Assembly (NCBI RefSeq): GCF_006965485.1
Contig: NZ_CP041360.1
Coordinates: 744,001 to 808,000, forward strand
Reading direction: 5' to 3'
Source: Spirosoma sp. KCTC 42546
GTDB lineage: Bacteria; Bacteroidota; Bacteroidia; Cytophagales; Spirosomataceae
DNA length: 64,000 bases
Each line of letters starts with the position of its first letter. Positions within the stretch are counted from its first letter, which is position 1. Shown one piece after another: positions 21,513 through 35,620 of this stretch. A program made the position numbers and the translations under genes. The notes below the pieces were generated by a model. That model saw only the letters and a list, made by a program, of their open reading frames with translations. It did not search any database and was not told the DNA's origin.

Positions 21513-24500
21513 ATGAAACAAATTTTCACTTCCTTACTCAAGGAGCGCTTTTTTTACTGCCTCACCTGGGTTGCTCTCCCTTTATTACTATGTCTGGGTT
21601 TTCAGGTTAAGGCCCAGCAAAGTAGCTTAGGCGCGCCCAATTCGTTAACATCAACACCTTTTGTTAATACGCCTTTCTCCGTTACCCAAGCGCATGCCAG
21701 TACGCTTGCCAGCTGTTGGGAGGGAGACGTAGGCCTTTGTGTTCTAGGCCCCAATGTTCCAGACAGGGCGATAGACAATGACTTAACCAACTTTGCGAGG
21801 ACAAACATCGCTGTTAGTGCAATTTCCTCTCTTACAGTTGGTGATAACAATCCGGCAACTATTTATAATGCCAAAAACTTTGCTGGCTTTGTTATAAGCA
21901 ACTCGTCCCTTTTGGAAGCTACTTTATTTGGCTCAGTAACTATAAGAACGTATAAAAATGGCGTGTTCCGTGAAGCAAGCACTAGTGCTAATCTGTTGGG
22001 AGTAAGTTCGAGTTTAATTTCTGGCGCTTATGAAGTAGGCTTCTATACAACACTGGATTTCAATCAGATATCCATAACATTTACTAACCCGTTAACAGTG
22101 GTTACTTCGTATGATGTATACTATGCGGTTATGAGGAGGTATGGTCCTGACAATACACCACTAGCCTGTAATACGTCTACCCCGATGAATAGTCCAACCT
22201 TCCCCGCTATTGTCAATCCTGACAACACCGGTTTTGGCGGGTTATTAAGCGTTGGGACTATAATCAATCCAGACAATGCAGTTAGTCCCAGTACCAATGA
22301 TGCCGCATCACTGGCAATAACGGCATCTGCTTTAGGGACTGGTTATTTCTCTATAAAGCTTCAGGATCAGGTCTTCAACTCAACAACAAATGCGCTTGAT
22401 GATGGCTACCCAGCAGGTACATTTGCGGGTATTGACCTTAGTAATCCGTCATTGCTAGAACTTGGCGTAGGAAGTGGCTTCATTGTACAGACTTACTATC
22501 ATGGAACACCTACCGCTGATATTGCTGCTAGTGGTGGCCTTTTTGTAGCAGGCAATACGGCATTACTAACGGGTACAGGGCGTCGAACGCTTGGGTTAGT
22601 AACAACAACGAAATTTGATGAAATAAAATTAACTGTAACAGGAACAGGTGCTAACGTTGGTACTGTGCTTATTTATGGAGCCGTTGTTAAACGTTTGTGT
22701 GATGCGCAACCACTTGTGTGTAACACAACATACCCATTGAGTAATACCGCCTTTCCGACAATTATTGATCCGGCAAGAACCGGCTTAACGGGGGTACTTG
22801 GGGTGGGGGCATCCATTCAAGATGAGGGAAATGTAATCAGCACTAGTACAACCGATTTTGCCACAATTACCAATACCGCATCAGTTGCAACGGTTGCTTC
22901 AATAGCCGTCCTAAATCCAATTAGTTCATATCCCGCGGGTACGTTTGCTGGTTTTACCGTCAACAAAGTCGCCGGAGTACTTGCTCTCGAATTATTTGAT
23001 CGGTTAACCATTACTACCTATAGAAGTGGGACACTCGTTGAATCCAGAAGCGCGGGCAACTTACTTGATTTAGCTGTAACGTTGTTTGGCCCAACCAACA
23101 ACTTTTTCAATGTAGGTTTTGTAACCACACAACCATTCGACGAAATACAGTTAAGTGTGGCTCCGTTGGTAGGTGCAGGTGTGGGCACCAGCTTGGCAAA
23201 TCTGTCGGGTTCGCTACGAGTATACGGCGCATTTATTGATACGCGCACATCGGTAGGTGGTGGTTTGGTTTGTGCACTAAACACGAATCCAGACTTTGCC
23301 GTTACCAACAAGAACATACCTGTCACGAGCAGTGTCAAAACTAACGATAAGGTACCCGCTGGCACTACGTATGGCACCAGCCCTACACTGACAAGCTCGC
23401 CTGGTGGCTCTGTACCATCACTGGTAATGAGCAGTAATGGTACGTATACATTCAGTAGCGCAACACCAGGCGTATATGTTTACTCGGTTCCCGTTTGTTT
23501 GAGTGCTATTTGCATTTCGCAAACACTAACCATCACGGTTCTTGACCCAACGGTAAACACCAACAATCCAGTCGCGAATCCAGATATTGCCTCTACCGCC
23601 GGAGCATCTACGAACCCTGCATCGTTGACAGTCAATGTTAGAGTAAATGATGGGCCTGGCAATCCGGGTGGTACGCTGGCAAACCCAACTATTGTTGTTA
23701 ATCCAACCAATGGGTCAGCCAGTGTAAATGGTAGTGGCAATGTGGTTTACACACCGAATGCTGGTTTTTATGGAACTGATATATTGACCTATCAGGTCTG
23801 CGAAACACCTAGTACACCTGCTTGCGGTACAGCTACGGTAACCATCACCGTTGTAGCACCAGGTAGCAACAATAGTACGGTAGCTGCCGATGATTACATT
23901 AGTACCTATCAGGGTGCGGCTGTTTCTGGTAATGTTAAAACCAATGACACTGATCCTGAAGGGAATACCCAGACGATAACTACCCAGAATACAACTATTC
24001 CAGGTGTAGGTACGTTGGTTGTAGCGGCTGATGGTGCATACACATTCACGCCAGTAGCTGGTGCTACGGGGCCGGTTGACTTTTCGTATACCACTACCGA
24101 CAATGGCTCCCCGTCAGCCTCTGCGAATGGAACATTACACATACTAATCAATCCGTTTAATCCGAATCCGGACTTCAACGTTACTGATATTAATGTACCA
24201 GTTCCGGGTAATGTTAAAACAAACGATGTAGTACCTGTAGGAACTACCTACGGTACGGCTACCCTGACCAGCTCGCCTGGTAGCGCAACGCTGACGCTAA
24301 CACCAACGGGCAGCTATACCTTCACTGCCAGCACACCAGGCGTATACACATACAATGTGCCTGTCTGCGTTACGGGAACACCCCCTGTCTGTACAACGCA
24401 GACATTGGCGATCACAGTGCTTGATCCGGCTGTGAATACGAACAACCCAGTAGCAAATCCAGACTTTGCAACGACCACCGGCGCGCCTATCAGCCCAACG

Positions 24501-25487
24501 GCATTGACAGTTAACATAAAGGTTAACGATGGACCAGGAAATCCAGGAGGTGCGTTACAAAATCCAACGATTCCTACTCAGCCTGCTCATGGTACTGCCA
24601 GTATTAATGGAAGTGGAAATCTGGTTTACACGCCAACGGCAGGGTATTATGGAACAGATGTTGTGACTTATCAAATCTGTGAAACACCTAGTACACCTGC
24701 ATGTGCTACCGCCACCGTAACCATCACGGTTAAAGCGCCAGGTAGCCCAGCGGCTGTATCCGCCAACGATGACTATATATCTACATCAGGAGGAAGCCCT
24801 GCCAGTGGTAATGTACTCGACAACGATCTGGGAACTGGCCTGTCCGTATCAAATGCGGGAACAACAGTAACCTCATCGGGTACACTCGTATTGACTTCCT
24901 CAGGTAGCTATACATTTACTCCTGCGCCGGGTGCTACGGGTCCTGTTGACTTTACTTATACCGCCTGCGATAATAATACACCGTCGACCTGCGCCAGTGC
25001 AACGTTGCATGTGCTGATTAATCAGGGTACTCCTGATTTAACGCCAGTCATTGATTTGCCTCAGGCCAACTTTGCCGCAACGAGCCCGGATAATACGAGA
25101 AGCTTTGTGGTAAATATATTTGAAGTTGGTGGGCAACCTACCTCTAGTGGAAATGTAGCTATCACGCTCTCAGCGCCAGCTGGTTATACAATTGCTTTCT
25201 CAAGTTCGATCACCAGTATTAGCGTTTCCGGAGGTACTACTACCCCAGTAGATAATACAAAGTGGACTGAGACTAGTAATAATGGGTTACAGATTTCACT
25301 AACGATTAAGGCTGGACAATTTATAGCTGCTAATGCCACTGCCAAGCTGGGTTTCACGATAACCCGCACAACGGCTAATTCTGGAAGCGCGTCAAATATC
25401 ACAGTAAATGTAAACGACGACGCTACACATACGTATGATGGAAATCCATTAAATAACGTTTACGCCAGAATTATCACTGGTTTGTAA
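21513..25487 (+). CDS. Large repeat-built extracellular protein (Ig/cadherin-like domains)
   Basis: Secreted protein of 1324 residues with an N-terminal signal peptide ending near VKAQ. The N-terminal half contains about three related modules, each opening with a Cys-Asn-Thr motif (LACNTSTPMNSPTFP, LVCNTTYPLSNTAFP). The second half is a tandem duplication of a roughly 290-residue unit with Ig/VCBS-like domains: NPDFAVTNKNIPVTSSV, VANPDIASTAGAS, VNDGPGNPGG, VVYTPNAGFYGTDILTYQVC and GAYTFTPVAGATGPVDFSY. A final domain (about 1190-1324) has no repeat partner. No C-terminal type IX sorting domain is visible: the protein ends NVYARIITGL. Adhesin or biofilm role is likely; the ligand is unknown. 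Confidence 0.85.
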   Translation: MKQIFTSLLKERFFYCLTWVALPLLLCLGFQVKAQQSSLGAPNSLTSTPFVNTPFSVTQAHASTLASCWEGDVGLCVLGPNVPDRAIDNDLTNFARTNIAVSAISSLTVGDNNPATIYNAKNFAGFVISNSSLLEATLFGSVTIRTYKNGVFREASTSANLLGVSSSLISGAYEVGFYTTLDFNQISITFTNPLTVVTSYDVYYAVMRRYGPDNTPLACNTSTPMNSPTFPAIVNPDNTGFGGLLSVGTIINPDNAVSPSTNDAASLAITASALGTGYFSIKLQDQVFNSTTNALDDGYPAGTFAGIDLSNPSLLELGVGSGFIVQTYYHGTPTADIAASGGLFVAGNTALLTGTGRRTLGLVTTTKFDEIKLTVTGTGANVGTVLIYGAVVKRLCDAQPLVCNTTYPLSNTAFPTIIDPARTGLTGVLGVGASIQDEGNVISTSTTDFATITNTASVATVASIAVLNPISSYPAGTFAGFTVNKVAGVLALELFDRLTITTYRSGTLVESRSAGNLLDLAVTLFGPTNNFFNVGFVTTQPFDEIQLSVAPLVGAGVGTSLANLSGSLRVYGAFIDTRTSVGGGLVCALNTNPDFAVTNKNIPVTSSVKTNDKVPAGTTYGTSPTLTSSPGGSVPSLVMSSNGTYTFSSATPGVYVYSVPVCLSAICISQTLTITVLDPTVNTNNPVANPDIASTAGASTNPASLTVNVRVNDGPGNPGGTLANPTIVVNPTNGSASVNGSGNVVYTPNAGFYGTDILTYQVCETPSTPACGTATVTITVVAPGSNNSTVAADDYISTYQGAAVSGNVKTNDTDPEGNTQTITTQNTTIPGVGTLVVAADGAYTFTPVAGATGPVDFSYTTTDNGSPSASANGTLHILINPFNPNPDFNVTDINVPVPGNVKTNDVVPVGTTYGTATLTSSPGSATLTLTPTGSYTFTASTPGVYTYNVPVCVTGTPPVCTTQTLAITVLDPAVNTNNPVANPDFATTTGAPISPTALTVNIKVNDGPGNPGGALQNPTIPTQPAHGTASINGSGNLVYTPTAGYYGTDVVTYQICETPSTPACATATVTITVKAPGSPAAVSANDDYISTSGGSPASGNVLDNDLGTGLSVSNAGTTVTSSGTLVLTSSGSYTFTPAPGATGPVDFTYTACDNNTPSTCASATLHVLINQGTPDLTPVIDLPQANFAATSPDNTRSFVVNIFEVGGQPTSSGNVAITLSAPAGYTIAFSSSITSISVSGGTTTPVDNTKWTETSNNGLQISLTIKAGQFIAANATAKLGFTITRTTANSGSASNITVNVNDDATHTYDGNPLNNVYARIITGL
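23286..25026 (+). repeat. Internal tandem duplication of about 870 bp in the surface protein gene
   Basis: Unit 1 spans about 23286-24152 and unit 2 about 24165-25026. Both start with AATCC(A/G)GACTT and encode the same order of domains, ending in a THLHVLIN-like strand. They have diverged by substitutions and a shortened final domain in unit 2, so the duplication is not recent. Confidence 0.8.
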
Positions 25488-25495
25488 AGTTTTTC

Positions 25496-25531
25496 TTGCC
25501 CCAAATATCTTTTTATAGATATTTGGGGCAA
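25496..25531 (+). terminator. Hairpin between the surface protein and the type IX cargo gene
   Basis: A 15-bp perfect stem TTGCCCCAAATATCT with a 6-nt loop, nine bases after the stop codon. No T-tract follows it, so it may stabilise the 3' end of the mRNA or act with Rho instead of being a classic intrinsic terminator. Confidence 0.6.
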
Positions 25532-25576
25532 ATTAGTAGTCCACAGTTGAATTTTCTAAACTTTGTATTCACGATT

Positions 25577-26632
25577 ATGACCAGAAAACTTTTACTTATG
25601 CTTTTGACGGTCTTGTGCAGCAGCTATGCCGCCTTCGCCCAGGATCCCTCCGTGGGAGGAATCGTCATTAGCCCCAACCCCATCCAGGTTGGACAAGCCG
25701 CTAGTCTCACCGCCAGCTTTGGCAATGGTAGCTCCACCGATATCCCTCAATCCGCTACCGCTACCTATACCGTTAACCTGCCCCCCAATATTGGCGTAAC
25801 CGGCTCCTCAGTCGTGGTTATCTCGCCTGTGGCGGGCACCACGGCCAACCTGTCGGTTACCGTGGGCGCTTATGATGGAACCAATGGCACCATTGTTACT
25901 GTCCGCAGCAATAACGGGCCCGTGCCCGGTAATGCCATCTATGATCTGCGCTTAGCCATCGTTGGCGTACGCGTAACGGGAGGCTTGCCGCCCAATGTGC
26001 TGAGCAATGCCCTCTCCAGTGGTATCGGTACCAACAACCCCAACAACGACAATGCCAGCACGCCCGTGGCGGTAACGGCGGGTGCTTTACCCGTAGCCCT
26101 GGTTTCCTTCACGGCCAAAGCCCAGGAGGATCGCACGGTTGCCCTGGCCTGGACCACCTCGCTGGAAACCAACAACAAGGGCTTTCTGATCGAGCGCAGC
26201 AAGGATCTGAAAGGTTTTGAGAAAGTGGGCGAAGTAACGGAGTTGGGTGCCAACAGCAATTCGCTGAAGAATTACCACCTGATTGACCAAACGCCTTACG
26301 CGGGTACGAGCTACTATCGGCTGACCCAGATGGATCTGGATGGCAAGTCGACGGTATTCCCGGTGGTGTCGGTGGTGCTGCGGGAAGGTGCCTATGGCGT
26401 GTTCCCCAATCCGGTGCTCAATGATCAGCAGTTCCGGTTGAGTCTGGATGAGCCCGAGACGGCACAGATCAATTTTTATGGCGCAGATGGTCGTTTGATG
26501 CCGGTTCAGAAGATGGGTGTCGAGTCGGGGAATCTGTTGTTAAAGGTGACGGGTAAGCTCTCGACGGGGGTGTACATTCTGACGGTGGATGAACGTGGTC
26601 AGACTCGTAAGCATCGCTTAATTGTCGAATAG
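25577..26632 (+). CDS. Secreted protein with C-terminal type IX secretion sorting domain
   Basis: Protein of 351 residues. The ATG at 25577 starts a signal peptide ending at AAFAQ; upstream in-frame codons overlap the preceding hairpin. Residues about 25-120 look like a CARDB/DUF11-type Ig domain (SPNPIQVGQAASLTASFGNG). A linker of the kind usual before sorting tails follows (LPVALVSFTAKAQEDRTVALAWTT and NNKGFLIERS). The C-terminal about 80 residues form a type A sorting domain: GVFPNPVLNDQQF, LYG-like INFYGADGRL, LSTGVYILTV and a basic tail RKHRLIVE. The gene is clearly more GC-rich than the AT-rich surface protein gene before it. Exported by the type IX machinery, of which PorU2 is encoded about 6 kb downstream. 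Confidence 0.88.
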   Translation: MTRKLLLMLLTVLCSSYAAFAQDPSVGGIVISPNPIQVGQAASLTASFGNGSSTDIPQSATATYTVNLPPNIGVTGSSVVVISPVAGTTANLSVTVGAYDGTNGTIVTVRSNNGPVPGNAIYDLRLAIVGVRVTGGLPPNVLSNALSSGIGTNNPNNDNASTPVAVTAGALPVALVSFTAKAQEDRTVALAWTTSLETNNKGFLIERSKDLKGFEKVGEVTELGANSNSLKNYHLIDQTPYAGTSYYRLTQMDLDGKSTVFPVVSVVLREGAYGVFPNPVLNDQQFRLSLDEPETAQINFYGADGRLMPVQKMGVESGNLLLKVTGKLSTGVYILTVDERGQTRKHRLIVE

Positions 26633-26729
26633 ATTTGTTACGATGCTTGCCTCAGCTCGCAGAGTTGAGTGGCGACCGTAAGGTTGCAGAATCGGCACCT
26701 GATTTCACAACAGTTAAATTCCTTGGCAC

Positions 26730-26882
26730 ATGAAAACAAAGTCCAACCATATATCGAATACAGCGTCGAAAAGGACGTATCAAACCCCCCGTGTTAAATC
26801 GCTGGGTAATGTAAAGAAACTGACGCTGAAGACGGGCTCGAACGTCGATGGCTTTGGCGGTACGTTCACGTTTAGTTCTTAA
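26730..26882 (+). CDS. Lasso-type RiPP precursor peptide (50 residues)
   Basis: Small gene encoding a leader plus core. The leader carries the pattern recognised by lasso RRE proteins, Y-x2-P-x-(L/V)-x3-G-x5-T: Tyr17, Pro20, Val22, Gly26 and Thr32, within YQTPRVKSLGNVKKLT. With Thr at position -2, cleavage after Leu33 would give a 17-residue core, KTGSNVDGFGGTFTFSS, whose Asp is core residue 7, a possible macrolactam acceptor for a 7-residue ring. The C-terminal Ser is notable because paeninodin-type clusters phosphorylate exactly that residue and an HprK-like kinase lies nearby. Lys as first core residue is unusual, so the cleavage site is uncertain. A terminator follows directly. A TAGATTTG at 26630 resembles a -7 element but lacks a good -33 partner. 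Confidence 0.75.
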   Translation: MKTKSNHISNTASKRTYQTPRVKSLGNVKKLTLKTGSNVDGFGGTFTFSS

Positions 26883-26913
26883 ATTATAAGGCTCTTTTCG
26901 CCTGATATGTACT

Positions 26914-26955
26914 AGCTTGGTTCGTCTTCTTAGAAGATGAACCAAGCTTTTTTTT
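26914..26955 (+). terminator. Strong intrinsic terminator after the RiPP precursor gene
   Basis: Stem AGCTTGGTTC-TCTTCT pairs with AGAAGA-GAACCAAGCT, 17 positions with one G/T mismatch and essentially no loop beyond the turn, followed by a run of eight T. It should uncouple the abundant precursor transcript from the enzyme genes downstream. Confidence 0.9.
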
Positions 26956-27072
26956 GTCCATCCAGGTCGATTTAACTCAAATAAGAGTTGACCACCCCAG
27001 AGAAAAAGGCTACCTTAGTCAAGTCGTACGCTACATAAATCATCCTAATTTTATTTATTTCTCTTTTCTTAA

Positions 27073-27360
27073 ATGACTATCACATCTGATACCCGAATTC
27101 AACTGGTACCAAATCAATCTTCATCTGTTCTTGGAAAGGAAACGGTATTATTAAATTATGAACTGGGTAATTATTATGAACTGAATGAAGTTGGGGGCTT
27201 TATCTGGTCTCTTTTACAGAATCATAAAGAAATGTCCGTTGGCGAAATTCAGGAAAGCATACTCAATGAGTTTGATGTAGAACCCGCTGTTTGTAACGAA
27301 GAATTAAGGCTATTTATCGAAAATCTATTGCGAGAGAAGTTGATCGAGGCAACCCCCTAG
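27073..27360 (+). CDS. PqqD-like RRE protein (lasso B1 type)
   Basis: Protein of 95 residues with the PqqD/RRE winged-helix fold that binds RiPP leader peptides. Typical features are a first beta-strand region (TRIQLVPNQSSSV), then ETVLLNYELGNYYELNEVGGFIWSLL, in which the LN...G.YYxLN..G..IW pattern is diagnostic, and a C-terminal helical part with the V-E-P/L..FI.NLL..KLI end. Stand-alone B1 proteins of lasso clusters have this size. It is expected to bring the precursor leader to the cyclase and, if present elsewhere, the protease. It is separated from the kinase gene by 124 bp. Confidence 0.9.
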   Translation: MTITSDTRIQLVPNQSSSVLGKETVLLNYELGNYYELNEVGGFIWSLLQNHKEMSVGEIQESILNEFDVEPAVCNEELRLFIENLLREKLIEATP

Positions 27361-27484
27361 TGTGGTGAAAATTATATAGGTGTCATCAAACGGATTTTGC
27401 GCAGATAGTCATAGTTTAGTTATCCGTACTAAATCGAGTTATCCTTGCTGAGCAAGCTACTCAGGTATTCGAGCTGATTTTATA

Positions 27485-28405
27485 ATGGAATTGACCAGAT
27501 ATTATTATACTGCGTACGGGCTTACTATTGGTTCTGAGATTCAGCTCCCTCCCCTCAAAGAAATAACTCCTAAGCCAGTTGATGTAGTTATTAGACGGGG
27601 AGCATTACCCGAAAGCCCACCGTTGCAGCCTACAAAAATTTATCGTGCTGGATTGCAAGCCAAATTTGCCCAAAATGGGCCACAGCAGTTATGGCTCAAC
27701 TGGGCACCCATCCTATCATTTATGGTCGTAAACGGCCAGGAACTCGTTCTGGATACAACTCAAACCGATGAGGATCTGCTCTCTCTGTTTACGTTAAGTG
27801 AAGCGCTTGGTCTTATCCTGTTTCAACGGGGTTACTTTTTGTTACATGGCAGTGCTATTCACCTCAATGGGAAAGGGGTTGTATTCCTGGGGGAACCAGG
27901 GGCTGGCAAATCAACCACAGTAGCAGCTTTTGCGCAAGGAGGGGTTAGCGTGATTAGTGATGATATGGTATGTATCCAAGTCAATGCAACAGGGCCGTCT
28001 TTAGTACTACCCGCCTTTCCACAAATCAAAATCTGGGAAAATAGCGTGACTGGCTTACAGATTAAGAAAGATGGACTCACGGCAGTGCGAGAGGGGGTTA
28101 ACAAATTTTCCTGGCATGATTCAATCGTCTTTAATGAAAACCCTGTGACGTTAGACCAGATTTTTGTTCTAACAGCGCCCAACGAATTAGCTGGTACGAG
28201 CTTCCAAGTCCCTAAACACCAGATACCAATTGAATTGATTAGCTATTTTCCCCTGGCCGATTCACTACTACAAGGCACACCATTGAAAGATTATTTTGAA
28301 AAAAGCACTACCCTAGCTCACAGTGTTCCAGTTATTAAGCTAAGCCGCCCAGCTGACTTTAGTCGACTACACGCATTTGTTGACGATCTAAAAACGACAT
28401 TTTAG
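27485..28405 (+). CDS. HprK-like serine kinase of a RiPP cluster
   Basis: Protein of 306 residues related to the C-terminal domain of HPr kinase. The Walker A motif GEPGAGKST lies at residues 136-144, preceded by FLLHGSAIHL with the conserved HGSA motif and followed by VISDDM (about 154-159), the acidic motif of this family. In paeninodin-type lasso clusters the homologous kinase phosphorylates the C-terminal Ser of the precursor. The precursor here ends in Ser-Ser, which makes that reaction the best prediction. The stop codon abuts the ATG of the nucleotidyltransferase gene with no gap, so the two are co-translated. Confidence 0.87.
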   Translation: MELTRYYYTAYGLTIGSEIQLPPLKEITPKPVDVVIRRGALPESPPLQPTKIYRAGLQAKFAQNGPQQLWLNWAPILSFMVVNGQELVLDTTQTDEDLLSLFTLSEALGLILFQRGYFLLHGSAIHLNGKGVVFLGEPGAGKSTTVAAFAQGGVSVISDDMVCIQVNATGPSLVLPAFPQIKIWENSVTGLQIKKDGLTAVREGVNKFSWHDSIVFNENPVTLDQIFVLTAPNELAGTSFQVPKHQIPIELISYFPLADSLLQGTPLKDYFEKSTTLAHSVPVIKLSRPADFSRLHAFVDDLKTTF

Positions 28406-29584
28406 ATGAAGCACTCACCCGAAATTTCGTTGTTGCTGATGGCCTGTGCGGTTGAGCCAACGGAGAACAAAAGAGCGCAGATTACCCTGTTTTTAGAACA
28501 GCATCAAGTAGACTGGGATCGACTTTATAAACTGGCGGCTCGCCATAAGGTAACGCCGTTTTTGTACCGAACCCTTCAGGCCATTCCCTTCGTTGCTGAA
28601 TCGTTTTTGACTACCCTACAGAACGATTGCCGGACAATAGCTACTGATAATTTACTGAAGCTACATCAATATAAGTTGTTAGATAAACGATTTGCTGATA
28701 ATGAAATTGACTATGTTCCACTCAAAGGAATTTATCTGGCAGCTAACTGCTATCCTGATAGTAGCCTTCGGACTATTGGAGACCTGGATGTTTTAGTAGC
28801 AAAAGAAGATATTTTTAAAACGATACGCCTTTTAGAAGCCGATAGTTATCTAGTAGATCAAAAATCGACGCTTTACATGAAGTATGAGCAGAAAGTTATT
28901 TTTTCTGATTTGTATGAGGTTAGCCTAATGAAGCCATTTTTTAACAATAGCTATTTTGATCTTGATCTACACTGGGAATTTGTATGTTTTAATAAGCAGT
29001 ATAAAGTTTATAGCGTACAGGAAGTTCTTTCCAGTCCAACCTTATATACAGAATACCAGATTGTTTTACTTGTAGCTCACCATGGTATAACGGCCATTTG
29101 GCAAACAATTAATTATATCAACGATCTCTATTTCTTAATAAATGATAAGGTAATTGACTGGGCGTGGCTATTGCAGGAGCTAGGTCAGAATGGCCTTGAA
29201 CGAGTTTTTCTTTCGGGCTTGCTCTGGTGTCAACAGATTTGGAATTTATCGTTGCCTTCCACTATTCAGGAAATGTTGGTGACTCAGCGTATCCAATTAG
29301 TAGCCAATGCGTATGAGAAAAACTGGGAAACCAGCGAGCCGCTTTCGTCCAGTTCCCTAATTTTTAGTCAATTAATGTTTTTCTTTAAAGCGCAAACGCA
29401 ACTAAGCAAGAAGTTGAAAATCATAGTTACGTTTTGCACCAGCCGGATCATTCGTTACAGCACGTTTAAGGTTGGGAAACGCATTGTATACGTGCCGAAA
29501 CAATTTGGCATCATCACGTTTTTTATTCGGGGGCTTCGCTCGCTGCTACGCTTTATTCCTGCTTTACGTGAGCCGCTACGTTAG
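28406..29584 (+). CDS. Nucleotidyltransferase family protein (PF14907) of the RiPP cluster
   Basis: Protein of 392 residues. Residues about 90-200 form a nucleotidyltransferase-like core with YVPLKGIYLAANCYPDSSLR and the metal-binding GDLDVLV motif (about 127-133). The remaining helical region resembles the NTP_transf_5 family. Homologues occur with HprK-like kinases in lasso clusters of the paeninodin type, where a further modification of the phosphate is suspected. It begins at the base after the kinase stop codon, and its last four bases overlap the end of the convergent cyclase gene. Confidence 0.83.
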   Translation: MKHSPEISLLLMACAVEPTENKRAQITLFLEQHQVDWDRLYKLAARHKVTPFLYRTLQAIPFVAESFLTTLQNDCRTIATDNLLKLHQYKLLDKRFADNEIDYVPLKGIYLAANCYPDSSLRTIGDLDVLVAKEDIFKTIRLLEADSYLVDQKSTLYMKYEQKVIFSDLYEVSLMKPFFNNSYFDLDLHWEFVCFNKQYKVYSVQEVLSSPTLYTEYQIVLLVAHHGITAIWQTINYINDLYFLINDKVIDWAWLLQELGQNGLERVFLSGLLWCQQIWNLSLPSTIQEMLVTQRIQLVANAYEKNWETSEPLSSSSLIFSQLMFFFKAQTQLSKKLKIIVTFCTSRIIRYSTFKVGKRIVYVPKQFGIITFFIRGLRSLLRFIPALREPLR

Positions 29585-31533
29585 CTGTACTGTTTGAGTG
29601 AATTAAGCCAGAGCGCCAGATAGATAATTCGGCTTACAAGCCAATTATAACGGGTTTTTTTCTTGATGGGGAAACGTGGGTTAAAAACAATAGCAACAAT
29701 CCTGGAAAATAGTTGCCGGTCAATGACCTCCCAGATCGGATGACCGGGTGTACTGAACTGCTCGTGAGTGGCCTGATACAGTTGTTGCGCTGATAATGTG
29801 CTGTATTCAACGAAGTTGGCTTTTGTCAGTCGAGATACAATCGAGGACGGCAGTATATCCTGTAGTCCGTTGCGGATCAATCCTCGCCCACGCCCTTTGT
29901 TAAAATGGACCTCTAAAGGTGTTGCTAACCCTAACTCAACAATAGTCTTGTCGAAGAACGGGAACGAATACTGATGCCCATAATAGGCACCGATGTGGTT
30001 CATCTGCTCGTTACAAATGACATTGGTTGTATGAACAATTTGGTTGATTGGCGCCTTATGTTCTGCTGATAGATTCCTAATCAGTTCGTTTGTCGATTGT
30101 TGCTGTCGTTGGAGTATTCGTTGTTTAAAATCAGTACTCAGTGCATTATTGAGTAAATCTCGATGAGCCAGTTTATCCTGAACTCGTTTGACCAAATAGG
30201 CGACGATGGCCGTAGTGGAGAGCCCGAAAATTCGTTTCTGATCGCGCAGCATGCTAAGAAAAGAAACGCCTGATTGTTTACTAAGCCGTTTTTTTAGATC
30301 GCTCCCAATAATGTATAGAACGTATTTTTCGTACTTAGCCTGATCGCTGAGCTGTTGCCAGTCGGCACTTAAAAAGCTCATGTTACGCTCACGAAACGAA
30401 ACCATTTGCTGACAGGCTATTTGTAATTGCTCCCAGTCGTTAGCGTCGAGGAGCTGGTCCAGAAAATCAAATCCGGTGGGAATGGTACTGTCGCCGTCAT
30501 GCCCGGTTAAGAGGATATCGCAACCCATCTGCTGGGCTTCCAATGATACGCTGAGGTGAAAACTGGAAGGAATAATGAAATGCTCAGGCCGGTCGAACTG
30601 ATGGTTTATTGTTAATACGGAGTCGAGCACATCGGCTACCGGACGGACCCGGTGATGCTGCGAATGCCATTGGTCAACCAACGCCTGTACATACGCCTGC
30701 TCATCGGCCGAAGGCTGTTCTGTATCGATATTAAAGGTGTGTAAAGAAGGCCGATGCTGCTGGAGTAATAACGATTGGGCAACGCCACTGATCGATGACG
30801 AATCCAGCCCGCCAGACAAATGGGCACCTACAAGCTTTTTGCCCTGTATCCGTCTATCTACCGCTTCAATAAAGTAGTCGTGAAATAAGGAGGCATATTC
30901 ATCTGGATTGGTCAATCCGCTAAACTGGTTTAAGTCGGGTTGCCAGTATGGCTGTATGTGCACATCCTGCGAAGTCACCCGGAGGTAGTGGCCCGGTAAA
31001 ACGCTGTAAATGGTTTCGTAGAATGTTTCGGCACTATAAGGAACGTAAGCCGTGGTCCAGGTCAGGTACTCTCTGTATTTATGCTGGTTTGGTTTTACGT
31101 TGACTTCGTTAAGAGCCAGCAATGCTTTGATTTCGGAGGCAAAGGCAAAAAAGCGATCCGGCTGATGTACGTAATAAAGCGGTTTTATGCCCAAAGGATC
31201 TCGCGCACAGTAAAGTTGTTGCTGATGGCTATCCCAGATAGCTACCGCAAAATCGGCGTTCAGGGTATTAAAGGAGGCAGGACCTTGCAGTCCGTAGTTT
31301 GTGACGAAAGGCTGTTGCGGGGTAGATTTGGAAAATACATCAGCATCGACAGCAGCATAGAGCTGATTCGCTGAGTTGATCTCCACTGGGCCGTCAAAGG
31401 ACATCAAAATTCCCTGGTTAATGGCCTGACTTGAAATGGCTCCCCGGTGTTTTAATCGTTCTATCACGTTTTGCTGATCAGTAGAAGATACCTCCTGTCC
31501 GTCAAATCGAATCATTCCTGCAATTCCACTCAT
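29581..31533 (-). CDS. Asparagine-synthetase-like lasso macrolactam synthetase (C protein)
   Basis: Protein of 650 residues with the AsnB two-domain layout. The N-terminal glutaminase-like domain starts MSGIAGMIRFDG: the catalytic Cys2 of true glutaminases is replaced by Ser, so ammonia from glutamine is not expected. The synthetase domain holds the PP-loop SGGLDSSS at residues 240-247, which adenylates the acceptor carboxylate. In lasso clusters this enzyme activates the Asp or Glu side chain and closes the ring on the core N-terminus. Size and the lost Cys fit a lasso C protein better than a metabolic AsnB. It is convergent with the kinase/nucleotidyltransferase genes, an unusual orientation, and its promoter must lie near 31.55-31.6 kb. 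Confidence 0.82.
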   Translation of the reverse strand: MSGIAGMIRFDGQEVSSTDQQNVIERLKHRGAISSQAINQGILMSFDGPVEINSANQLYAAVDADVFSKSTPQQPFVTNYGLQGPASFNTLNADFAVAIWDSHQQQLYCARDPLGIKPLYYVHQPDRFFAFASEIKALLALNEVNVKPNQHKYREYLTWTTAYVPYSAETFYETIYSVLPGHYLRVTSQDVHIQPYWQPDLNQFSGLTNPDEYASLFHDYFIEAVDRRIQGKKLVGAHLSGGLDSSSISGVAQSLLLQQHRPSLHTFNIDTEQPSADEQAYVQALVDQWHSQHHRVRPVADVLDSVLTINHQFDRPEHFIIPSSFHLSVSLEAQQMGCDILLTGHDGDSTIPTGFDFLDQLLDANDWEQLQIACQQMVSFRERNMSFLSADWQQLSDQAKYEKYVLYIIGSDLKKRLSKQSGVSFLSMLRDQKRIFGLSTTAIVAYLVKRVQDKLAHRDLLNNALSTDFKQRILQRQQQSTNELIRNLSAEHKAPINQIVHTTNVICNEQMNHIGAYYGHQYSFPFFDKTIVELGLATPLEVHFNKGRGRGLIRNGLQDILPSSIVSRLTKANFVEYSTLSAQQLYQATHEQFSTPGHPIWEVIDRQLFSRIVAIVFNPRFPIKKKTRYNWLVSRIIYLALWLNSLKQYS

Positions 31534-31653
31534 ACTTGGTCAATTTCTAAAGCGTTAACAAACTGGTCTATTTCGTATCTTCGCTTTTGGTGATCTGTGA
31601 TCGACAAATTCAGGATTTATAAAGCTACTCAACACCTTCGCGAACGCCGTCAA

Positions 31654-32355
31654 ATGCTCAAAAAAAGCAGCTCTTACATAATCAACCTACTGATTTTACT
31701 GGGTATGGGCATTGGTTGTAAACAAACGTCAACCGATCCTGTCCCCGATGATTCAGCTTATTTCCCGCTGCAAACCGGCGATTACTGGATTTATCAGGTA
31801 ACTCAGGAAACCTACTCGCTCACCAATCCAGCTACTAAACGGATTTACCAGCTACAGGAAAAAGTTGGCAACTCATTCACTCAAAATGGACAGTTGTTTT
31901 TTCTTGTTGAAGAGTCGATAAAACCATCGTCCCAATCCGATTGGCAAATCAACGCTATTCATACCGTATATAAAAACCTATCGGAAGTGGTTAGTCAGGA
32001 AAGTAATGTGCCTACACTTCGACTGGTTTTTCCTATATCGTCGGCAACTTCCTGGAACGTTAATACGTACAACGCCAACCCCGATACGCTGTTGAGCTAT
32101 CAGAACGACGGACGTCCATTTATACTAGGTAATCAAACATTTGACCGTACGGTTTCAGTTGTTGGTAAGAACGATTCAACGTTAATAAATCAACAGAAAT
32201 ACCAACGGGTTTACGCGCAGAACGTGGGCTTGATTTATCGGGAGGATGCATCGCTGGCGTTTTGTCAATCGACACCAGATTGTATTGGTAAAGGCATAAT
32301 TTCATCAGGCAACCGACTAAAATGGGAATTAGTGGCCAGTAATCGGTTGAAATGA
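31654..32355 (+). CDS. Hypothetical lipoprotein
   Basis: Protein of 233 residues. The ATG at 31654 starts the signal sequence MLKKSSSYIINLLILLGMG with lipobox IGC (Cys22). After the Cys comes KQTSTDPVPDDS and a conserved-looking YFPLQTGDYWIYQV segment, found at the start of many Bacteroidota lipoproteins of unknown role. No enzymatic motif is seen. It diverges from the cyclase gene and ends eight bases before the stop of the convergent porU2 gene. Confidence 0.75.
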   Translation: MLKKSSSYIINLLILLGMGIGCKQTSTDPVPDDSAYFPLQTGDYWIYQVTQETYSLTNPATKRIYQLQEKVGNSFTQNGQLFFLVEESIKPSSQSDWQINAIHTVYKNLSEVVSQESNVPTLRLVFPISSATSWNVNTYNANPDTLLSYQNDGRPFILGNQTFDRTVSVVGKNDSTLINQQKYQRVYAQNVGLIYREDASLAFCQSTPDCIGKGIISSGNRLKWELVASNRLK

Positions 32356-32362
32356 GCCATAA

Positions 32363-35300
32363 CTAGGGTTGCCAGATCACCCTACCTGTATGTGTCTCTG
32401 TTCGACCGTCTTTCCAGATTAATTGGAGCGAGTACGGGTAAAGACCCGGATTAACGCCTTGCCAGAGCAGTGAATTTTTTCCGGTTGATACAGAAAAGCT
32501 ATCGGCAAAAACCTGAATACCGGCCTGATTGTAAATAGTCAGCCGCGACTCAACGGGCAGCTCCTGCACATTCAGGCTGAGGTCAAACTTTACATATGTA
32601 CTGGCCGGGTTAGGATACGTACGCAACGTAATGGTCTCGTCATTGGCCAGCGTGATGATATCGAGCGTATACGGTGGTTGGGTTCGATTGCCTGCCGCAT
32701 CTTTTCCGAATACAATAAGCTGGTAGGCTCCCCCCGCTTTAAGTGACAGATTTGTGATGACCTGGAGCTGGTTGGCCGAAACCGCCGAAACAGAAAATGA
32801 CTGCGACGATAGCTTTTGGGGATTACAGGTTGTGCAGCTTTTTAAGTATACGTCAACGGCCGTGGTATCCTTTGGTGAAAGCGGATTTTCGTCCTGAATG
32901 AAAATCTCTACCTGTGGATTCATCCGAACAACGGCCTGATTTTCTTTAATGGCTCCATCAATAAATACATTGATTTGAGGGCTAATGCGGTCCAGGAGCG
33001 CTTGAATGGGGTAGCTTGTGCCGTTTTGAGCCTTTGCCCAGTCAATCGTTAAACTAGCTGTATTATTCGTTTTGCTGAGTTCGGTTAGCTGATTGGTTGG
33101 GTCAATGGCTACTTCGATCTTCTGGAGCGTTTCGTCTTTAAGCATCGTGTATACCAGCGTGTCGCGGTAGCGAAAGGCGTTGAGCCCTAAGGTACTGGTC
33201 GTGGCAGCCGCACTAGTCGTTTTTTTGAGTGATACCGATACCGACTGACCTGCAATGTACTTGCCTAAGTTCGCCAGCGGAATCACGACCCGAATCGAAT
33301 CACTGTTTTTGAGTGAACTCCCCACCACCGACGATTGAATATAGATGCCCTTTGGATCAACCTTAAAATCGGGGTTGGGCAAGGGGTAGAGGACAACCGC
33401 CGGATCGCCCTGTAAAATCATTTCCAGAGATACCGATACATTATACGGATCGGCACTCTCTTTTTCGAGGGCTAAATTTACCTGTTGCTGCACCTTGCCA
33501 AACGACATTCCCAGCGATGTAGGATCTGTATACAGAATCGAATAGAGTTTTTTCAGGTACAGCGTTGTTGGTTCCTCGAAACTCCAGTAGGAGTGTGCCA
33601 GAACAACGGCGGCTCCTTTATTAGGGGTCAGCAACCAATCGGTAGATAGTGTGTTGAAATTAGAAAAAATCTCGCCGACACCGCAGCCGTTAAAAATCAT
33701 AAATGGGTACCGCTTATTGCTGAATCCGTTTTCGGGCGGTGAGGCAAATCCAAAATTCATGTCGGTAACGGCCGGTCCGGCATGGCCAAAAAACGTAATT
33801 AAGCTCACACCGTCATTAACTTGCGGAGTAATGTTTGTCGGCTCTACTTCATTGGTTGTGCTTTTACTGAACGCACTAATTTCACCCCCCAGTTGGCCAT
33901 TGGTGTAAATGGTACCAATTGTAGTCAGCGCAGAACGCAGGCTTTGGGCTTCGTCCAGTGTTTTACCCCCACTGATATGAATGATATGTTTTCGCCAGAG
34001 GTCATTCGGCGTAGCGCCTTCCAGTTGCTTTACTTTATCCAGATAAGCGAGCACCTGATCATTTGTCGTCACGTTTAAGCGACCGGTCGGCAGTGCTGGT
34101 GTATTTATCGGGTAGCCGCTTAGGCCTGCTGTTAATAGAATATCCGATCCTGGATAGCCAATCGTTGGTACCAGATCGTCGGGTGTTGTTTTGACGAAGT
34201 AGGGGTAACTACACGCCCGGCCAACTAATAGCAGGTGTTTTACTGCCGAATTCGCCAGCATATAATCCGCAAACCGCCGAAGTGCCAGCGGGCTTCGTTC
34301 GCCGTAATTAAACTGATCGTACAGGGAGTCGGCCTCAACAATAAATGGCTTATGGCTGCCTCCAGCCTCCGATGCCCGGTAAGCCGCATACGTTTGCGCC
34401 GACTGTTTGAGTGATGCATGGGTAATAATCAGATACGTGGCCGACTGCGGAAACGTAGTCGGAAAACGGGCAGCCTGAATAGCCAGGGGTTTAAGCGTAC
34501 GGCTGGTTACGAAAATATCCCGCTTTACGGTTGTTCCATCCACGACAACCAGTGTTTGACCGCCCGACGGTTGGGCGGCTACGTATTGGCAATTGGTTTT
34601 ATCTGTAATGTCATAGGCAATGGATGCCTGAGGTGCATTTTTTATAGATAGTAAGGCTGTCTGACGTGGGTTTATCGGCACGTGAAATACCTTATCTGAC
34701 TGGCCTGCCATATCCAGCGCTTGTGGATAAGAAACCTTTACGTAGGTAATGGAGAAGTTGTTTGTGTAGTAAATCTTTTCGGGAGAGAATCGTAGGCTAA
34801 GTTGTTCGTTCTGAAGCGTTGCCGGGCTAATTGTTGCCTGAAAGGTTTGTGACGCGAATCCGAATATGTTCAGGGTGGCTATAGCTGTTGTGGGAGAGGC
34901 ATCTACCTGTATTCGATGGGTATTATTATCGCGGCCATTTACCATGCCCTCCAGTGCAATAGGTTGGGAGGACGTGGTTACCCGATTCGTTAAATTTACC
35001 CGGACTGTACCAATCGAATCTTTCGTGAGCATTGGCCCCGACCAGCCTTCTCCCGGTTCGAAGTAACTTTGCTGGAGAGCGGGTTCGATGCCTTTTAAGT
35101 TGTTAAACGTATAGTCGCTGGTAAAGGCCTGTACCGTTTCTTCGATATGGAATGCTTCTGGTGTAAGGCCCTGGGCAGATTTGTTCAGTTCTGGCATCCG
35201 TTTTCCAGAAAGCGCCGGGCTGCTAGTCAGGAAATAGGCGGTCTTATCTGAAAATAGCGTTTGATAGGGATGTAATCGCTTTTGCGGGCGGTATAGTAGT

Positions 35301-35620
35301 GAATCCTGACTGCCATCATTGCCTTGTCCATAGAATTCAACATAATCCTGTGCATCGAACACACCATCCTGCTGGCCTACTACCCGAATAGCTAGTTCTT
35401 TTCCTCTAAAAAACAACTGCCAGTTTGCCGGATTTGTCTGGAGGAACGAAGGGTCAGTGGCTTTAATGTCCTCATAATTTACCCTATAGACGCCCGTCTG
35501 GTTTACGGAGAATTTCAGGTATTTCTGGTTCGATTTAATCCATTCATTGCCGAATACAGACTGAGCCTGCACGGCCAGGCAATTCATGATGAACCCAATG
35601 AGCAGTAATCCTTTTTTCAT
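32363..35620 (-). CDS. porU2: PorU2-type type IX secretion sortase (peptidase C25 family)
   Basis: Gingipain-fold protease of 1085 residues that would cleave sorting tails and attach cargo to the surface. A signal peptide (MKKGLLLIGFIMNCLAVQAQ) is followed by a large N-terminal beta domain. The C25 caspase-like domain shows the catalytic His in LITFFGHAGP and the catalytic Cys in MIFNGCGVGE, about 53 residues apart. A CARDB-like Ig region and a C-terminal type IX-like tail complete the protein (LRTYPNPASTYVKFDLSL, with WKDGRTETHTGRVIW at the end). Length and domain order match PorU2 better than PorU, which is usually beside porV. Other type IX components are not in the window. Confidence 0.85.
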   Translation of the reverse strand: MKKGLLLIGFIMNCLAVQAQSVFGNEWIKSNQKYLKFSVNQTGVYRVNYEDIKATDPSFLQTNPANWQLFFRGKELAIRVVGQQDGVFDAQDYVEFYGQGNDGSQDSLLYRPQKRLHPYQTLFSDKTAYFLTSSPALSGKRMPELNKSAQGLTPEAFHIEETVQAFTSDYTFNNLKGIEPALQQSYFEPGEGWSGPMLTKDSIGTVRVNLTNRVTTSSQPIALEGMVNGRDNNTHRIQVDASPTTAIATLNIFGFASQTFQATISPATLQNEQLSLRFSPEKIYYTNNFSITYVKVSYPQALDMAGQSDKVFHVPINPRQTALLSIKNAPQASIAYDITDKTNCQYVAAQPSGGQTLVVVDGTTVKRDIFVTSRTLKPLAIQAARFPTTFPQSATYLIITHASLKQSAQTYAAYRASEAGGSHKPFIVEADSLYDQFNYGERSPLALRRFADYMLANSAVKHLLLVGRACSYPYFVKTTPDDLVPTIGYPGSDILLTAGLSGYPINTPALPTGRLNVTTNDQVLAYLDKVKQLEGATPNDLWRKHIIHISGGKTLDEAQSLRSALTTIGTIYTNGQLGGEISAFSKSTTNEVEPTNITPQVNDGVSLITFFGHAGPAVTDMNFGFASPPENGFSNKRYPFMIFNGCGVGEIFSNFNTLSTDWLLTPNKGAAVVLAHSYWSFEEPTTLYLKKLYSILYTDPTSLGMSFGKVQQQVNLALEKESADPYNVSVSLEMILQGDPAVVLYPLPNPDFKVDPKGIYIQSSVVGSSLKNSDSIRVVIPLANLGKYIAGQSVSVSLKKTTSAAATTSTLGLNAFRYRDTLVYTMLKDETLQKIEVAIDPTNQLTELSKTNNTASLTIDWAKAQNGTSYPIQALLDRISPQINVFIDGAIKENQAVVRMNPQVEIFIQDENPLSPKDTTAVDVYLKSCTTCNPQKLSSQSFSVSAVSANQLQVITNLSLKAGGAYQLIVFGKDAAGNRTQPPYTLDIITLANDETITLRTYPNPASTYVKFDLSLNVQELPVESRLTIYNQAGIQVFADSFSVSTGKNSLLWQGVNPGLYPYSLQLIWKDGRTETHTGRVIWQP

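Follow-up and report, generated by a model that had tools for sequence, protein, structure and literature searches.

How can a lasso peptide be made where the peptidase that should free its core is missing from the gene cluster? This question is raised by a locus of Spirosoma sp. KCTC 42546 (Bacteroidota), which lies within the stretch of 64,000 nucleotides analysed here and called the window (C1:744,001–808,000, C1 being the single contig of the 8.66 Mb chromosome). A first-pass annotation, made from the letters of this DNA alone, recognised a 50-residue precursor, a PqqD-like protein of the RiPP recognition element type (RRE; RiPP, ribosomally synthesized and post-translationally modified peptide), an HprK-like kinase, a PF14907 nucleotidyltransferase (NTase) and an AsnB-like cyclase, but neither a B2 peptidase nor an exporter. 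Open reading frames (ORFs) and profile matches bear out all five genes, and profile searches together with a motif scan for ABC proteins bear out the two absences. The ABC exporter of lasso clusters is frequent, not universal; no ABC-like ORF was found by motif scan of the 34 main loci compared, some of which are shortened by contig ends. An overlooked B2 gene was ruled out by a permissive PF13471 search (E ≤ 10), which matched five places of the genome, none of them inside the window. Comparison of related genomes leads us to regard the window as holding the centre of a lasso-peptide pathway whose parts are distributed and to which B2 would be supplied in trans (probability roughly 0.8).

Local and orphan-type B2 peptidases in Spirosoma

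Profile searches of the whole host genome detected two B2 genes above the PF13471 cut-off, neither of which is situated at the window locus. One belongs to a separate lasso cluster (L007; locus and genome handles are our own), and the other is solitary (L006; C1:7,814,112–7,814,537), flanked by an MscS-like gene (named by eye) and by a secreted protein with a DUF5689 and an exonuclease-like domain. The solitary B2 scores 78.7 bits against NF033537 (cut-off 33). In all 41 B2 sequences compared, the solitary one included, Cys83 and His115 are kept.

An ortholog of the window cyclase (52–100% identity) is present in 27 of 36 Spirosoma genomes, while two more possess distant AsnB-like matches only; the named cyclase relatives came from Spirosoma in 8/8 loci. 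G026, a fragmented, 80%-complete assembly with contig ends in the locus, was dropped before counting, which leaves 26 scorable genomes. B2 is encoded inside the locus in 17 of these, with 26–43% identity to the orphan B2, and no orphan-type B2 occurs in any of the 17. The gene is missing locally in the remaining nine (G000, G001, G003, G006, G008, G015, G022, G032 and G035), every one of which carries an orphan-type B2 (50–100% identity to the orphan) elsewhere, so that local and orphan-type B2 are mutually exclusive. In eight of the nine, the orphan type is the sole B2 over the cut-off, and in seven the surrounding 19-kb stretch contains no cyclase. Among the nine genomes without a cyclase ortholog, eight lack any B2 over the cut-off and one (G020) has its own cluster. 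AsnB-like matches in G001, G015 and G017 were set aside, as no RRE, kinase, NTase or B2 was labelled in their 19-kb stretches. In a quick tree, all orphan-type sequences fall into a single clade (SH-aLRT 92), which groups at 100 with B2s from other genera, namely those of stand-alone blocks and of one cluster.

Because 17 relatives hold B2 in the same locus, it seems that the gene was lost at the window locus and replaced by a B2 of another lineage elsewhere. The first-pass annotation had counted a B2 in the same locus of relatives against its own reading; such a gene does exist, but a simple local loss as the whole story is rejected, since a B2 from the other lineage is kept at a distance. 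Judged from these sequences, local loss and replacement recur together. The same annotation had offered three options, namely a protease supplied from elsewhere, a leader cut by another enzyme, or a different RiPP class that reuses lasso parts. The distribution of the orphan type (9/9 versus 0/17) supports the first of these. A structure model of the B2 (predicted local distance difference test, pLDDT, 85.6) gave no match in the PDB at E ≤ 0.001, the best being vasohibins at E 0.033, and searching PDB sequences with a B2 profile brought up two matches of doubtful meaning (E 0.01–0.02).

The second B2 of the host genome has to be considered as well, since it could in principle substitute. The L007 cluster is complete (kinase, RRE, cyclase, precursor-like ORF, B2, NTase and a methyltransferase-like gene), and its B2 exceeds the cut-offs of both PF13471 and NF033537. 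It might therefore be the L007 B2 that processes the window precursor, the solitary one having another job or being a relic. We consider this quite improbable, as the L007 B2 falls in a different clade and the L007 cyclase is only 26% identical to that of the window, over part of its length. In addition, eight of the nine genomes with a B2-less locus offer no B2 over the cut-off besides the orphan type, which is found only in such genomes and which in the host retains the two catalytic-type residues Cys and His. The L007 cluster (L007:7602-14250) sits between a peptidase gene (L007:5149-7428) and what appears by eye to be a duplicate of its end (L007:15134-15730). The host genome contains a third PF14907 locus (L012), which was set aside: genes resembling those for RRE, kinase and NTase are present, but no cyclase or B2 was labelled. 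Two glycosyltransferase-like genes (by eye) are also located there (L012:9059-13098).

Dispersal of further enzymes within the family

B2 is not the only enzyme that changes place. The HprK-like kinase is local in 17 Spirosoma loci, and the other nine genomes each have one remote HprK (37–40% identity), which occurs in none of the 17 genomes with a local copy. The remote kinases all fall in one clade (100) and occupy three kinds of site, as judged by eye; the copies looked at keep the His, Walker A and DD motifs. The RRE gene is absent from the locus in three Spirosoma genomes (G001, G015 and G022), and in all three it is found beside the orphan-type B2. At the locus of G014, about 3.8 kb of other genes separate the NTase from the cyclase (L118:9398-13249).

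Beyond Spirosoma, the cyclase was matched at E ≤ 1e-60 in 96 of 222 genomes of the family, and seven of the closest loci from other genera were read. The pathway is complete at one site in G205 and G150, while in G199, G202, G084, G092 and G113 the precursor and cyclase are unaccompanied by B2, RRE, kinase or NTase. B2 exceeded the cut-off in all 11 genomes tested. Blocks of RRE, B2, kinase and NTase, with no cyclase in the 12-kb stretch, were observed in G084, G092, G113, G187 and G209 near an FtsH-like gene (named by eye), and in three of these five genomes a precursor-cyclase locus was found elsewhere.

Several observations weigh against a B2 acting in trans on the window precursor. The orphan B2 is only 27–34% identical to in-locus B2s (16 rows), and its recognition of the leader is thus an assumption. 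In G035, the orphan-type B2 adjoins a second, diverged cyclase and precursor (L133), which links it to another locus and means that it is not solitary. The locus of G022 ends with its contig 185 bases beyond the NTase, so that the loss of the local gene is not directly readable and was deduced from the whole-genome search. G026 possesses a cyclase, but neither a B2 over the cut-off nor a match for HprK was obtained there. The B2s detected in G199 and G202 sit in other lasso clusters, which makes the partner less clear and limits generalisation. Moreover, on a cyclase tree of 33 labelled loci, the location of B2 changes at least 5 times, that of HprK 7 times and that of the RRE 4 times; as these changes recur on the tree, the B2 and HprK counts are not phylogenetically independent. 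Finally, Lys-starting cores of 13–14 residues, as predicted below, are unusual among lasso peptides, and threading of the product is therefore unproven.

Precursors, modifying enzymes and the predicted pathway

The genes around the precursor are collected in Table 1. Judged by eye, translation of T9 probably starts near 25577 and that of LIPO near 31654.

Table 1. Features of the window at and beside the lasso-type locus
Feature	Position	Strand	Evidence
BIG, large surface protein with Ig/cadherin repeats	21513..25487	+	NF012211, PF17963
T9, protein with type A sorting tail of the type IX secretion system (T9SS), partner gene of the precursor	25496..26632	+	TIGR04183, 35.2 bits (cut-off 23)
Lasso-type precursor, 50 residues	26730..26882	+	Alignment, dN/dS, leader/core split
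PqqD-like RRE protein (B1)	27073..27360	+	PF05402, 63.2 bits, over cut-off
HprK-like peptide kinase	27485..28405	+	PF07475, 26.4 bits, under cut-off 33.3; TIGR04352 also under cut-off
PF14907 nucleotidyltransferase	28406..29584	+	PF14907, 130 bits, over cut-off
AsnB-like macrolactam cyclase, convergent with the other genes	29581..31533	-	PF00733, over cut-off
LIPO, conserved putative lipoprotein	31597..32355	+	Alignment, invariant Cys
PorU2, putative T9SS sortase (peptidase C25), lasso-linked clade	32363..35620	-	NF052324, 994.5 bits (cut-off 450); tree

In an alignment of 26 precursor rows, the window included, Y17, P20, G26, T32, L33, K34, G36, S37 and D40 are invariant. The lasso leader pattern recognised at first pass (Tyr17, Pro20, Gly26 and Thr32) is therefore shared by all rows. 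The precursor scores under the cut-off of the lasso leader model NF033521 (16.8; cut-off 19), which was matched at E ≤ 0.05 by 24 of the 26 rows. For the ratio of nonsynonymous to synonymous substitution rates (dN/dS), ten other rows were compared with the window over 29 codons of the motif region; one of the ten, G003_loc, was mis-anchored and left out. Three were saturated at synonymous sites; dN/dS was 0.08–0.15 in five rows and 0.23 in one. Together with the nine invariant residues, these values, well under 1 in the scorable rows, indicate that the frame is maintained, the loss of which had been named at first pass as the other finding that would speak against a lasso-like system. At the level of codon comparison, the precursor is under purifying selection.

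This selection also bears on the possibility that the locus is decaying and yields no product, B2 having simply been lost. The absence of B2 and the differing gene content among relatives would fit such a course. We nevertheless hold it to be extremely unlikely, given the constraint on the precursor, the uninterrupted enzyme frames and the retention of an orphan-type B2 in each genome without a local one. Furthermore, four precursors exist in the host genome, namely that of the window and those at C1:738412-738564, C1:2129802-2129945 and C1:4154047-4154190, and the last two share an identical 14-residue core (KTGSNVDGFGGTFV) despite diverged leaders. Precursor profile matches were obtained in exactly the 27 of 36 Spirosoma genomes that carry the cyclase ortholog. 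In prochlorosins, several unlinked precursors are served by one enzyme set, and here too the same enzyme set probably serves the four precursors of the host; the chemistry differs, and in Spirosoma the enzymes are dispersed in addition. Four precursors within 8 kb, each behind a T9-type gene, were observed in G007 (L185:7836-15558).

Core statistics were drawn from 78 precursor ORFs of the fetched loci, a few from other genera, of which 77 fit the leader spacing. Their predicted cores follow the pattern K1-x-G3-S4-x-x-D7: a Lys starts 73 of the 77, Ser4 is kept in 75, the first acidic residue stands at position 7 in 70, inside the range of positions 7–9 expected for a lasso precursor, and 52 are 13–14 residues long, while only eight end in Ser. 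Leaders that have been studied carry YxxPxL at -17 to -12 and mostly Thr at -2, according to PMC10368454, and the distance from Tyr to Thr in the window precursor is the same. From this spacing, the leader would comprise residues 1–33 (26730-26828), and the predicted core KTGSNVDGFGGTFTFSS (26829-26879) would start at Lys34, with Asp7 of the core as the acceptor. For the macrolactam of this 17-residue core, the calculated [M+H]+ is 1690.77 (1770.74 if phosphorylated), and for the two shorter copies with the shared core it is 1367.66.

The matching leader spacing also argues against the idea that no leader cleavage precedes cyclisation and that the product belongs to another RiPP class built with lasso parts, for instance through an isopeptide of another amine with Asp40. 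The lack of B2 and exporter at the locus, the odd Lys at the predicted core start and the very short cores would suit this idea. Yet B2 is encoded in the same locus in 17 relatives, and all 26 scorable genomes have a B2 from one or the other lineage, which renders the idea highly unlikely in our view. The distributed lasso pathway thus remains the preferred reading, and its enzymes can be considered in turn.

The RRE protein finds its top NCBIfam match in NF033536 ('lasso PqqD'; 65.6 bits, cut-off 80), and all lasso PqqD models stay under their cut-offs. The kinase keeps the His, the Walker A and the SDD elements (HGSAI..GEPGAGKS..SDD). The cyclase, likewise, reaches 331 bits against the lasso cyclase model NF033535, under the cut-off of 525. 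The nucleophile with which AsnB acts as a glutaminase, Cys2, is missing from the cyclase at every one of the 34 loci, which fits an enzyme that uses a peptide amine. The PF14907 protein is possibly a sugar-adding enzyme.

The most likely order of events would begin with binding of the precursor leader by the PqqD-like RRE protein, followed by modification of core Ser4, which the HprK-like kinase probably phosphorylates and which may receive a nucleotide or sugar from the PF14907 protein. The unlinked B2 cysteine peptidase, with which the window precursor is predicted to pair, would then cut after Thr(-2)-Leu(-1), and the AsnB-like enzyme would join the freed α-amine of Lys1 to Asp7. Ser4, rather than the C-terminus, is the likely target of the kinase, considering its conservation and the precedent of a ring serine in the Bradymonas peptide described below. 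C-terminal phosphorylation as a family trait is unlikely, because so few cores end in Ser.

Type IX secretion genes and comparison with known systems

The precursors are not isolated from other functions. A T9-type gene stands directly 5′ of the precursor on the same strand in 61 of 78 cases. Of the 17 exceptions, the precursor of L112 follows, at a distance of about 360 bases, what is left of a T9 gene where a contig begins; different genes adjoin the remaining precursors, an RRE gene in two cases. In G009 (L200:6097-6583) and G021 (L207:6096-6581), a distant precursor stands ahead of an RRE gene of its own, with no T9 gene before it. Independently of the choice of loci, the host genome contains three matches (E ≤ 0.001) to the sorting tail of the window T9, all of them immediately 5′ of a precursor; the remaining precursor, at 738 kb, comes after a different T9-type gene. 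The window T9 (25575-26635) is 98.96% identical over 1061 bp to L183:6253-7313 (C1:2.13 Mb), and the precursor stretches behind these two copies are 85% identical over 169 bp. This comparison points to recent duplication or gene conversion.

On the other side, LIPO and PorU2 adjoin the cyclase in 26 of 27 Spirosoma loci, with G009 as the exception. Both are also near the cyclase in G205, G202, G199 and G084, and were not labelled at the loci of G150 or G113 (G092 was outside this check). The window PorU2 comprises 1085 residues, and its match to NF052324 spans profile positions 3-879 of 879. The known T9SS sortases PorU and PorU2 are represented by NF033707 and NF052324; the protein resembles them in its match to the PorU2 model and differs in belonging to a clade apart from generic PorU2s. 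A FastTree of 46 PorU2s, with 20 of the 26 lasso-linked sequences from Spirosoma among them, places the lasso-linked copies in one clade (100), separate from the generic ones (100). Of the nine lasso-less genomes, the eight that could be placed contain a generic PorU2 only, while G028 carries no more than a PorU2 fragment. Near the orphan-type B2 of G001, G003, G015, G022 and G032 there is a second, diverged set consisting of a precursor, LIPO and PorU2, with T9 labelled in four of the five; in the host genome, this second set is split off and lies at 733-740 kb. The structure model of LIPO (pLDDT 72.9) weakly resembled lipoproteins of Bacteroidota and folds of the LolA type, with a best E of 3e-4 and TM-scores of no more than about 0.4. 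The C-terminal region of BIG resembles that of the protein adjoining the orphan B2. Of the 27 main stretches from Spirosoma, several of which stop short of its position, 11 have an ORF labelled as BIG-like.

By gene association, the lasso products are thus tied to T9SS cargo and to one clade of PorU2 sortases. How they would act together is more speculative. Rather than being a free product, the lasso peptide might serve type IX secretion as a partner for surface attachment: PorU2 would cut the T9 sorting tail and couple the cargo to the mature peptide, with the side-chain amine of the nearly invariant Lys1, which is free, as a possible site, while the modified Ser4 and LIPO might link the conjugate to the cell surface. 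We regard this proposal as rather unlikely; if true, it would mean that a RiPP is used as a sortase substrate. In the literature collection searched, no paper linked lasso peptides or RiPPs to type IX secretion or T9SS, and none used the word PorU2. The text of PMC13352647 does not contain 'in trans', 'orphan' or 'Bacteroid', and PMC10352776 mentions lasso solely in its references and glossary.

Two characterised groups offer a comparison. According to PMC9266682, the paeninodin and pseudomycoidin clusters of Firmicutes encode a kinase with a His-Lys-Asp-Asp motif and B1, B2 and C proteins, with an annotated nucleotidyltransferase for pseudomycoidin, and their C-terminal Ser is phosphorylated. 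The window pathway resembles them in its kinase with His and DD motifs, B1, B2, cyclase and NTase. It differs in its variable C-terminus, its unlinked B2, the lack of a detected exporter, its scattered precursors and the T9SS cargo and PorU2 alongside, and, given the rarity of C-terminal Ser, we do not file it as a phosphorylated lasso of the paeninodin type. In the bsf cluster of Bradymonas sediminis, as described in PMC10368454, a YxxPxL leader goes together with separate B1 and B2, a kinase that targets a serine of the ring (core Ser3) and an NTase gene; one cluster holds B2 and an ABC transporter, the ring is Gly1-Asp8 and Ile stands at -2. The leader with its -17 to -12 spacing, the separate B1 and B2, the kinase and the NTase gene are shared with our system, which in contrast has a predicted Lys1-Asp7 ring, Thr(-2), dispersed genes and no ABC transporter found. 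PMC10368454 also includes one kinase-type lasso cluster that likewise has no D gene.

The wider picture is that of a lasso system whose genes are dispersed and which goes together with one clade of T9SS sortases; its function is possibly much more novel. The comparison suggests that a lasso pathway can persist without being one cluster, in that B2, RRE, kinase and precursors relocate while the set is retained. Genome mining based on clusters would call such loci incomplete and overlook the distant precursors. The tight association of a RiPP with a T9SS sortase clade and its cargo is a testable lead to the role of these peptides in Bacteroidota.

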